This document shows, piece by piece, positions 6,095 to 45,061 of a DNA stretch of 46,445 bases. How positions within the stretch are numbered: the stretch's first letter is position 1; each line of letters starts with the position of its first letter. The notes beneath the pieces were generated by a model, which saw only the letters and a program-made list of their open reading frames with translations, was not told where the DNA came from and did not search any database. The position numbers and the translations under genes were made by a program. Source of the stretch: Gammaproteobacteria bacterium (GTDB taxonomy: Bacteria; Pseudomonadota; Gammaproteobacteria; Thiohalomonadales; Thiohalomonadaceae). The stretch covers positions 1 to 46,445 of the forward strand of contig JADGBN010000010.1 of assembly GCA_015231435.1 (NCBI GenBank), given 5' to 3'.

Positions 6095-6234
6095 TATCAG
6101 GTCAATCGCACCCGAGGCGCGGATCACCTGACTTAAATCAAATCCATCAATGTTTAACGCTTGCCCTCTCTATGAATGAAGCATAAAATCGGTGTGACAA
6201 AAATATGATAAAAATATTACCGTCGATTAACTAC

Positions 6235-6325
6235 GTAACCGTTCAGACGCCTTGCTTTTTTACCCTCACCCCAACCCTCTCCCGAGGGGAGAGGGGGCAA
6301 AAGTGGTGGGGGTCTGAACGGTTAC
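6235..6325 (+). mobile_element. 91-bp MITE-like element, copy 1
   Basis: GTAACCGTTCAGAC...GTCTGAACGGTTAC inverted ends; perfect 8-bp direct repeat TTAACTAC at 6227-6234 and 6326-6333. Confidence 0.9.
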
Positions 6326-6370
6326 TTAACTACTTCGTTCTGTTTAACCCTAGCAAGCAAGGGATTCGCC

Positions 6371-8191
6371 ATGTCATACCGTAAACTATTTCTTATAGCC
6401 ATTCTCTCAGTACTTGGTTACGGCTTCTGGGTTAGCCCCGATTTTAAGATGATCGCTGCGGGAGTCGCTATCTTTCTTGCCGGTATGCTCTCGTTAGAAG
6501 AGGGGTTTCGCGCCTTTACCGGCGGCATGCTGGAGCAGATGCTGCAACGCACCACCGACAAGATGTGGAAGAGCCTCACCTTTGGCATCATCTCCACCAC
6601 CATTATGCAGTCGAGTTCACTGGTATCGGTCATTACCATCTCCTTTCTCAGTGCCGGCCTAATTGGCTTGGGAGCAGGTATTGGCATCATCTTTGGCGCC
6701 AATATCGGCACCACCACCGGCGCTTGGTTAATCGCAGGCTTTGGTCTTAAGGTCGATATTGCCGCCTACGCCATGCCGATGCTGGTTTTTGGTGTCATTC
6801 TTGTTTTTCAAAGCGCCAAATCACTTAAAGGCATCGGCTCTATTCTTATCGGCCTCGGTTTTCTCTTTCTCGGCATTCACTACATGAAAGATGGCTTTGA
6901 TGCCTTCCGCGATACCCTTGACCTTGCCGCCTATGCGATGACAGGTTTTTGGGGGCTGATTGTCTTTACCCTGTTTGGTATGGCGGCAACGGTCATTATG
7001 CAATCAAGCCACGCCACCCTGGTACTCATTATTACGGCACTCGGGGCAGGGCAGATCACCTATGAGAATGCCTTGGCACTGGCGATTGGCGCCAATATCG
7101 GCACAACCATTACCGCAATTATTGGCGCCATGAGTGCCAACGAACAGGGCAAACGCCTTGCCGCCGCGCACCTTATCTTTAACGTGGTCACCGGCATAAT
7201 CGCCATCACCTTTATCGGCCAGTTCCGCGATGCCGTGGACTTTACCAGTGCCGCCGTCGGCATTGCCGACAATGATTACACCCTCAAGCTTGCGGTCTTT
7301 CACACCATCTTCAATCTGGTCGGAGTGATGGTCATGCTCCCCTTCACTGATCAGCTGCAAAAATTTCTGGTTGCTACCTTTAAGCGTCCAGAGATCGCCA
7401 CCAGCAAACCACGCTATCTTAACAACGCCTCGGCCGAGTTTCCCGATGCGGCGGTTAGTGCACTGCGTCAGGAGTGCGGCCACCTCTATGAGAATGGTCG
7501 CGATCTAATTATGCGCAGCCTGCTGTTAAAACCCGCTGACCTTCAACCCGACGCCACCCTCTCGGCCATTAGTCAGCGTAAAAGCCCCGGTGAGGACTTC
7601 GACTTTGATACGCTCTATCAGCAGCAGATTAAAGATCTCTACAGTGCTATTATTGAATTTATCTCCAAAGCGCAGGTGAGCTGGAGCCAAAACCAGTCAG
7701 GAACCCTTTCGTGGCTGCGCGAAGCGAGCCGTTCACTGGTCGAGGCGATTAAAGACGTTAAACATCTACGCAAAAACTTTACCATCTATGCCCACTCCAA
7801 CAACGCCCATATTCGTCAGGAGTACATGGCGATTCGTGAGCAGATCGCATCTGTTTTACAGGAGATGGAAGAGATCCGTAGCAATGAGGATGATGATCTG
7901 GGTATTCTTGCCCTCGATCAGTTACGGGTTCAGATTGACGAGGCGGATGATCACCTCAATCAACAAATTGACACCCTGATTCGAGAAGGTAAAATATCCC
8001 CACAAATGGGTACTTCACTGATGAACGATACCAGTTATGCTCATGATATTGCCACCAAGCTGATAGCGGTCGGCAGTTCACTCTTTCGTGCCCCCGACCC
8101 GGGCATTACCAGCGTTGAGTATGCCCTGTCACTGGATGATGATGAACGTCACGCGCTTTCAGAAAAGCCGGAAAAAAATAGAGATCAATAG
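6371..8191 (+). CDS. Na/Pi cotransporter family protein with C-terminal PhoU-like domain
   Basis: 606 aa; duplicated GANIGTT repeats and QSSS/QSSH motifs (IMQSSSLVSVITIS, IMQSSHATLVLI). Confidence 0.93.
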   Translation: MSYRKLFLIAILSVLGYGFWVSPDFKMIAAGVAIFLAGMLSLEEGFRAFTGGMLEQMLQRTTDKMWKSLTFGIISTTIMQSSSLVSVITISFLSAGLIGLGAGIGIIFGANIGTTTGAWLIAGFGLKVDIAAYAMPMLVFGVILVFQSAKSLKGIGSILIGLGFLFLGIHYMKDGFDAFRDTLDLAAYAMTGFWGLIVFTLFGMAATVIMQSSHATLVLIITALGAGQITYENALALAIGANIGTTITAIIGAMSANEQGKRLAAAHLIFNVVTGIIAITFIGQFRDAVDFTSAAVGIADNDYTLKLAVFHTIFNLVGVMVMLPFTDQLQKFLVATFKRPEIATSKPRYLNNASAEFPDAAVSALRQECGHLYENGRDLIMRSLLLKPADLQPDATLSAISQRKSPGEDFDFDTLYQQQIKDLYSAIIEFISKAQVSWSQNQSGTLSWLREASRSLVEAIKDVKHLRKNFTIYAHSNNAHIRQEYMAIREQIASVLQEMEEIRSNEDDDLGILALDQLRVQIDEADDHLNQQIDTLIREGKISPQMGTSLMNDTSYAHDIATKLIAVGSSLFRAPDPGITSVEYALSLDDDERHALSEKPEKNRDQ

Positions 8192-33435: not shown

Positions 33436-34065
33436 ATGGCACGCAGTAAAACTAGTCAAAAATGGTTAAAAGAGCATTTCGATGATCGCTACGTCAGCCT
33501 CGCCCAGCAGCAGGGCTATCGCTCGCGTGCCTGTTATAAACTCATTGAAATCAGTGACCAGACCCGCCTGCTGCAACCGGGCATGACCGTCGTCGATCTC
33601 GGTGCCGCCCCGGGAGGGTGGTCGCAGGTTGCCGCCGAACGGGTGATTACCCGCAAAGGGGCAGGACGGGTAGTTGCCCTTGATATTTTAGCAATGGATG
33701 CGATCCCCGATGTTGAAATCCTCTGCGGCGACTTTCGTCAGGAGGAGGTGATGCAACAACTCCTCATGCAAATCAATAATCAGGCAGTCGATCTTGTCTT
33801 ATCCGATATGGCGCCCAATAGTAGTGGAGTACGCAGCGTCGATCAGCCGCGTGCCATGTACCTTGCCGAGTTAGCCCTTGATCTCTGCCGTCAGGTGCTA
33901 AAACCCGATGGCGACTTTCTCGTCAAACTTTTTCAGGGAGAGGGTTTTGACACTTTTCTTAAGGCGTGTCGTGCAACTTTTCGCCAGGTCAGCAGTCGTA
34001 AGCCCGATGCCTCCCGCGACCGCTCGCGGGAGATCTACCTCTTGGCACGCGGTTTTCGTGAATAG
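33436..34065 (+). CDS. rlmE: 23S rRNA 2'-O-ribose methyltransferase
   Basis: [42 protein letters not shown]. Confidence 0.96.
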
Positions 34066-34211
34066 ACCCGTCATCCTTGAAAATGCTGGTTCGTTGCACC
34101 AAAGGCAGGCTGCGCACGCCGCAGTCGCTCACCCCAATCACATAGTTAATCTATGCTCATGGGGATTCGCGACTTTGCCGCCTTCCATCATTTCCAATGA
34201 TTTTGGGTATA
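34063..34211. repeat. ERIC-like imperfect palindrome, copy 3; left end overlaps rlmE stop
   Basis: TAGACCCGTCATCCTTGAAAATGCTGG...CATCATTTCCAATGATTTTGGGTATA with the same core as copies 1 and 2. Confidence 0.82.
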
Positions 34212-34365
34212 GACCGGCTGTTGTCGGCGGCGGATTCAGCCGCAGTAAACGCTCTCCCCAACCATATTATCAGACGATTGTTGCTTTACCCCTGAAGAAG
34301 CTGAGGTACAATAACCCATCAGCTATCGACCAACCCCCATTTACTTTAAATAGGAAGAGACCAGC

Positions 34366-36320: not shown

Positions 36321-37199
36321 ATGAGTCAACATCCCCTGATATTGAACTGTGGCGGACGTCAGCTTAATCTGACGACGCCACAGGTGATGGGGATTATTAA
36401 CGTCACTCCGGACTCCTTCTCCGATGGCGGTCAATATCAGCAACTGGAGAGTGCGCGTCGCCATGCTGCGGCAATGGCAGAAGCGGGCGCCGCAATGATT
36501 GATATTGGTGGCGAATCGACCCGTCCAGGCGCTGCCGCAGTATCACTTCAGGAGGAGCTTGATCGCACCCTACCGGTCATTGAGGCAATACACGCCAGTT
36601 GTGATCTGCCGATCTCCATTGATAGCAGCAAACCTGCCGTGATGCGTGCCGCTGCCCAGGCTGGCGCAGGATTTATCAATGATATTAATGCCCTGCAGGC
36701 TGAGGGTGCCCTGACGACTGCGGCGCAACTGCAACTACCCGTCTGTCTGATGCACAAACAAGGGACGCCGCACACCATGCAGCAGGGCCCTCACTATGAC
36801 AATGTCGTTAGCGAAGTGCAGCAGTTTCTCGCTGCGCGTCTGCAAGCCGCCCTAGATGCAGGCCTTTTGCGGCAACAAATACTCCTTGACCCCGGCTTTG
36901 GCTTTGGCAAAAGCGTTAAACACAACCTCACCCTAATGCAGCAGCTGGCTACCTTAAATGAGTTAGGTCAGCCGCTACTCATCGGCATTTCGCGTAAATC
37001 GATGCTTGGCGCGGTTCTTGACCGCCCCGTCAACGAACGTCTCTACGGCGCCATCACCCTAACCACCTGGGCGCTACTGCAGGGCGCAAAGCTCATTCGC
37101 AGCCATGATGTGGCCGCTACGGTTGATTGTCTAAAAATGCTGCGCGCCCTGCAAGAGAACCGCTGCGACACGGTCATCGCAACCACCCCATCATCGTAA
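36321..37199 (+). CDS. folP: Dihydropteroate synthase; stop codon lies within the inserted MITE-like element
   Basis: QVMGIINVTPDSFSDGGQY, DIGGESTRPGA, LDPGFGFGKSVKHN. Confidence 0.96.
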   Translation: MSQHPLILNCGGRQLNLTTPQVMGIINVTPDSFSDGGQYQQLESARRHAAAMAEAGAAMIDIGGESTRPGAAAVSLQEELDRTLPVIEAIHASCDLPISIDSSKPAVMRAAAQAGAGFINDINALQAEGALTTAAQLQLPVCLMHKQGTPHTMQQGPHYDNVVSEVQQFLAARLQAALDAGLLRQQILLDPGFGFGKSVKHNLTLMQQLATLNELGQPLLIGISRKSMLGAVLDRPVNERLYGAITLTTWALLQGAKLIRSHDVAATVDCLKMLRALQENRCDTVIATTPSS

Positions 37200-37286
37200 C
37201 CATTCAGACGCCCTGCTTTTTTACCCTCACCCCAACCCTCTCCCGAGGGGAGAGGGGGCAAAAGTGGTGGGGTTCTGAACGGTTAC
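37196..37286 (+). mobile_element. 91-bp MITE-like element, copy 2
   Basis: About 97% identical to copy 1; perfect 8-bp direct repeat CCATCATC at 37188-37195 and 37287-37294. Confidence 0.92.
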
Positions 37287-37319
37287 CCATCATCCACCTA
37301 ACAACAAAGAGTTATTCCC

Positions 37320-44861: not shown

Positions 44862-44949
44862 TCCCCACTGGCCTCGGAAAATAGGTAGTAGCGTTTGACA
44901 CCCTGCTGTTTTTAGTCGAAGATTAACACAGTGTAGTGGTTCCCCGACA

Positions 44950-45040
44950 GTAACCGTTCAGTCCCCCACCACTTTTGCCCCCTCTCCCCTCGGGAGAGGG
45001 TTGGGGTGAGGGTAAAAAAGCAGGGCGTCTGAACAGTTAC
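44950..45040 (-). mobile_element. 91-bp MITE-like element, copy 3 (inverted)
   Basis: Reverse complement closely matches copies 1 and 2; flanks CCCCGACA (44942-44949) and CCCCGATA (45041-45048), 7/8 identical. Confidence 0.88.
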
Positions 45041-45061
45041 CCCCGATAGCGAGGTAAGGCG

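Follow-up and report, generated by a model that had tools for sequence, protein, structure and literature searches.

The window analysed here, a stretch of 46,445 nucleotides from contig JADGBN010000010.1, contains three short repeats, raising the question of what these repeats are and what has moved them. An earlier note on this DNA had described three 91-bp copies, and a sequence check found each of them at exactly the coordinates and on the strand that the note gave (Table 1). The 8-bp direct repeats that it reported on both sides of each copy are also present, with the pair at copy 3 being imperfect. The inverted ends, which it wrote as GTAAC...GTTAC, do exist but were quoted too short, as the real terminal inverted repeats extend over ~17–18 bp (GTAAMCGTTCAGACNCC).

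Table 1. Positions of the 91-bp repeats and their parts in the window
Feature	Position	Strand	Remarks
MITE copy 1	6235..6325	+	91 bp, upstream of ORF 6371-8191
Left 8-bp target duplication, copy 1	6227..6234	.	TTAACTAC
Right 8-bp target duplication, copy 1	6326..6333	.	TTAACTAC
Left terminal inverted repeat, copy 1	6235..6251	+	GTAACCGTTCAGACGCC, IS66-like end
Right terminal inverted repeat, copy 1	6309..6325	-	GTAACCGTTCAGACCCC, read on the minus strand
Inner hairpin repeat, copy 1	6263..6293	+	CCCTCACCCCAACCCTCTCCC + GAGGGGAGAGGG
MITE copy 2	37196..37286	+	91 bp, shortly ahead of the native stop codon in the folP-like gene
Left 8-bp target duplication, copy 2	37188..37195	.	CCATCATC
Right 8-bp target duplication, copy 2	37287..37294	.	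CCATCATC
MITE copy 3	44950..45040	-	91 bp
8-bp target duplication, copy 3	44942..44949	.	CCCCGACA
8-bp target duplication, copy 3	45041..45048	.	CCCCGATA, 7/8 versus CCCCGACA

The repeats form a MITE family

A sequence search of the source genome (2.87 Mb in 223 contigs, 94% complete) revealed about 40 copies of the family, a number that may be a slight undercount. The elements are typically 86–93 bp long, which leaves no space for a transposase gene. In the 36 complete copies, the two 8-bp flanks agree at 8/8 positions in 23 copies and at 7/8 in 9, with the remaining four showing matches of 5 (two copies) and 3 (two copies). In the mispaired control, in which the left and right flanks were taken from different copies, 1 of 1260 pairings reached 7. 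The contrast between 32 of 36 copies and 1 of 1260 mispaired flanks indicated that the 8-bp duplication is a property of the whole family, in agreement with what the earlier note had expected of a genome-wide check. With no coding gene, inverted ends of 17 bp, a fixed 8-bp duplication, dispersed copies, and empty sites, the 91-bp repeats are a true MITE family; the family is a new one of a kind already known. One variant of 120 bp (L039:101-220) carries an internal duplication of ~30 bp near its right end, with flanks matching at 7/8.

Empty sites and the effect on a folP-like gene

Copy 2 is located in the interval between two genes that we take, from recognition of their sequences, to be folP and glmM. 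The folP-like gene spans 36321-37199, and the insertion point lies 4 bases before its native stop codon. Comparison of the occupied gene, which ends in ...TTPSS*, with the rejoined empty site, which reads ...TTPSST*, revealed that the TAA now ending the gene comes from the GTAA end of the element itself and that the protein is one residue shorter. Nine relatives have this gene pair side by side, the matched parts of the two genes being separated by only tens of bases that contain no element, which provides the empty orthologous site that the earlier note had suggested seeking. The gene downstream of copy 1 is retained in the same-genus genome (contig 22, from 9201 onwards), where no MITE match was found near it. 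The DNA flanking copy 3 is not conserved on both sides in the relatives. Several other MITE copies are also positioned within a few bases of the ends of open reading frames.

Age of the activity

The earlier note took the copies to be near-identical and their activity to be recent. Near-identity is found within the window, where the copies are 97–100% identical to copy 1, but it does not extend to the family: among the 36 source-genome copies, the smallest pairwise divergence is 1.1%, the median is 7.7%, and identical pairs number 0. In addition, one mismatch is present in 9 of the 32 matching duplications. The lack of identical copies, together with these mismatched duplications, suggested that the activity in the source genome was not very recent or occurred in several waves, so that recent activity was an overstatement for this genome. 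It does fit two relatives, the same-genus genome and G009, a genome of the same family available as one closed contig of 4.07 Mb, which carries homologous MITEs (up to 81% identical) with 8-bp duplications. Identical pairs are common in both, with 21 of 36 pairs among nine MITE copies in the former and 21 of 55 pairs among eleven in the latter, indicating recent bursts in these relatives. Duplications matching at 7–8 of 8 positions flank 16 of the 20 copies examined in the two genomes, 9 of 11 in G009.

IS66 elements with matching ends

Published IS66 elements have ends starting with GTAAGCGTCCGG.../GTAACCGTCCGGGCA (PMC12888890) and generate 8-bp repeats (PMC3281130). The MITE has GTAA ends that match those of a transposase-bearing element, and it has the 8-bp duplication. 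A partner transposase in the same genome, which is expected of an active family and not required of a MITE, was not found: the IS66 transposase profile PF03050 gave no match in the source assembly, and the same-genus genome (72% complete) yielded no convincing IS66 transposase. One IS66 match in contig 242 of G001 was rejected (E 6.5e-6, no matching ends); from its look, we assume it to be a fragment of an IS6/IS240-type transposase. A pattern search of G000 and G001 for paired ends ~1.7 kb apart revealed no intact partner among the places listed. The partner element is not resident in the source or same-genus assemblies.

Analysis of G009 revealed many IS66 (PF03050) matches, and two of these loci begin with GTAACCGTTCAGTCCCCCCC. 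The IS66 element at 2240864-2244501 has the ends GTAACCGTTCAGTCCCC/GTAACCGTTCAGATACCC, also given as GTAACCGTTCAGTCCCCC and inverted GTAACCGTTCAGATACCCCC, and a perfect duplication, TACGAAAC, on both sides; judged from the split open frames, its transposase gene is broken by an IS3-like insertion. A second G009 copy (L101:952-2212, 672951 on) has lost its right part and is followed by a different ORF. Intact TnpC-only IS66 elements of 1676–1677 bp (1.68 kb), with the ends GTAACTATTCAGACCCCC and a single gene of ~527 aa (PF03050), are present in G266, another genome of the class, and this single-gene organisation presumably resembles that of the ISBst12 group. The 1676-bp element has the ends GTAACTATTCAGACCCCCTG/GTAACTATTCAGACCCC and the duplication TAATTGTT (8/8), and two further G266 elements have the ends GTAATCGTTTAGCCCCCC and likewise duplications of 8/8. 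A Methylococcaceae MAG holds a similar IS66 element with an 8/8 duplication. The contig scan for relatives of the G009 transposase reached two.

Comparison of the IS66 ends with the MITE end consensus showed agreement at 12–17 of 18 positions overall and at 15–17 of 18 for the G009 and G266 elements, with the resemblance confined to the outer 15–18 bp. The first 12 end bases are common to the window MITE and the IS66 TnpC elements of the MITE-bearing relative, and within G009, position 12 distinguishes the ends of the MITE from those of the IS66 element (GTAACCGTTCACTC versus GTAACCGTTCAGTC). An unrelated G009 IS66 element, with the ends GTAACCTTACGCC, matches the consensus at only 10/18, indicating that the likeness is not general to GTAA ends.

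Probable mobilisation in trans

These comparisons of sequence make it probable, at roughly 0.87, that the repeats are a non-autonomous ~91-bp MITE family mobilised in trans by a single-gene IS66-family transposase. A TnpC-only, ISBst12-like IS66 transposase would be supplied in trans, would recognise the GTAAMCGTTCAGAC-CCC terminal repeats, and, by acting on the MITE ends, would insert the element and leave an 8-bp staggered target duplication. The source genome may have lost the partner element, or its fragmented assembly may lack it; the inner hairpin may be cargo captured between two IS66-type ends. The movement in trans by an IS66-family transposase that the earlier note proposed is supported as the best explanation, although not proven. 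The transposases with matching ends for which it had proposed a search do occur in the MITE-bearing same-family genome and in one further member of the class, but none is detectable in the source or same-genus assemblies.

We consider it unlikely that another family making 8-bp duplications, for example of the IS1595, ISL3, IS256, or ISAs1 type, moves the MITE and that the likeness to IS66 is convergent. Such a mover would agree with the lack of an IS66 transposase in the source genome and with an end match limited to the outermost bases, but it would leave as coincidence the 12 end bases shared with IS66 TnpC elements that occur in a MITE-bearing relative and make 8-bp duplications, and the low score of the different IS66 element argues against a generic likeness.

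The window family shares features with known elements. TnpC-only, ISBst12-like IS66 elements have the same GTAA-type repeats, with an extended match of GTAAYYRTTCAGACCCC, the same 8-bp duplication, and, in full-length relatives, a PF03050 transposase; the window element differs from them in being gene-less and 91 bp long, and its hairpin repeat was not noticed in the full-length IS66 elements inspected. Bacterial MITEs in general, among them MITEAba12 (PMC6382973) and the Cardinium MITE (PMC9769881) as far as their abstracts describe them, are likewise short and non-coding, carry terminal inverted repeats and target duplications, occur in tens of copies, and move in trans; the window family is set apart by its IS66-type ends and 8-bp duplications. 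No IS66-linked MITE with a named partner was found in the literature searched. What the present analysis contributes is an IS66-type MITE family that is well documented, has a likely class of full-length partners in relatives, and has empty sites.

The inner hairpin as a separate repeat

The window contains the inner 21-mer three times, whereas 100 shuffles gave an expectation of 0. In relatives other than G000, G001, and G009, the matches listed are confined essentially to the inner part of the element (mostly positions 29-62); the inspected loci lack GTAAC ends, and several hold the hairpin in inverted pairs. Among 185 genomes of the class, 25 contain the exact 21-mer and 0 contain the reversed control pattern. 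This occurrence without MITE ends and across 25 of 185 genomes marks the hairpin as a broader repeat; to judge from its distribution, it is a class-wide repeat in its own right, which the MITE carries between its IS66-type ends. It resembles REP/BIME repeats in being a dispersed palindrome found in inverted pairs and in being a target of IS110-family elements, which also insert into REP/BIME, and it differs from them in being carried between transposable ends. A literature search for the hairpin sequence returned no relevant paper and one unrelated paper with a variant string.

The hairpin bears on a further reading, in which the whole repeat would be a conserved regulatory or RNA structure, such as a terminator or a REP-like element, held by selection rather than mobile DNA. 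This is very improbable. The fold is indeed very stable (z -5.4 and -6.1), but as a result of the inverted ends, and the presence of the inner hairpin in many genomes without MITE ends is countered by the target duplications that flank almost all copies and by an empty orthologous folP-glmM site, which shows that the repeat is not fixed across genera. In addition, scanning the window for Rfam families and tRNAs gave no match.

An IS110-family element inside the hairpin

The pattern search also revealed a unit of 1256 bp on contig 55 (L060:1008-2263) that has MITE ends on both sides and encodes a 320-aa IS110-family transposase (PF01548, PF02371) in an intact gene. The outer 49 and 45 bases of this unit are the two halves of a MITE, 97.8–100% identical to a MITE copy, indicating that the IS110 element lies inside the MITE hairpin. 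Contig 79 (L063:1550-1659) ends 110 bp into a junction identical to that of contig 55, and in contig 82 (L072:1-135) the same IS110 end adjoins the opposite arm of the hairpin. Each of the three junctions follows GGGAGAG, in one arm or the other, and from these junctions, an IS110-family element has apparently inserted into the MITE hairpin at least three times. No 8-bp duplication flanks the contig 55 unit, which suggests later recombination.

IS110 elements move by site-specific recombination, which does not yield terminal repeats with 8-bp duplications. The contig 55 unit was rejected as an autonomous parent through which IS110 would move the MITE, the least credible of the readings, since the intact IS110 gene is surrounded by both MITE ends but these ends belong to an ordinary, pre-existing MITE rather than to IS110, the same IS110 end meets the MITE hairpin in two other contigs, once in the other arm, and G001 and G009 carry MITEs without a relative of this IS110 element (E<=1e-20). 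The IS110 element has invaded the MITE and is not what mobilises it.

A class-wide hairpin repeat can thus ride in a transposon and subsequently become the insertion site of an IS110-family element, and the pairing of MITE hairpin and IS110 offers a natural system for studying target choice by guide-RNA recombinases. We tentatively raise the possibility that the hairpin with GGGAGAG is a hotspot of insertion that is widespread, being both a passenger of miniature elements and a programmed target of IS110; if so, the spread of the MITE would create new landing sites for IS110.

A second dispersed repeat of ~150 bp is present in the window at 34063-34213 (+), beginning GACCCGTCATCCTTGAAAATGCTGGTTCGTTGCACC...; the source genome contains over 12 other copies of it at 92–99% identity. 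Sequence similar to this repeat starts directly beside the IS110/MITE unit of contig 55.
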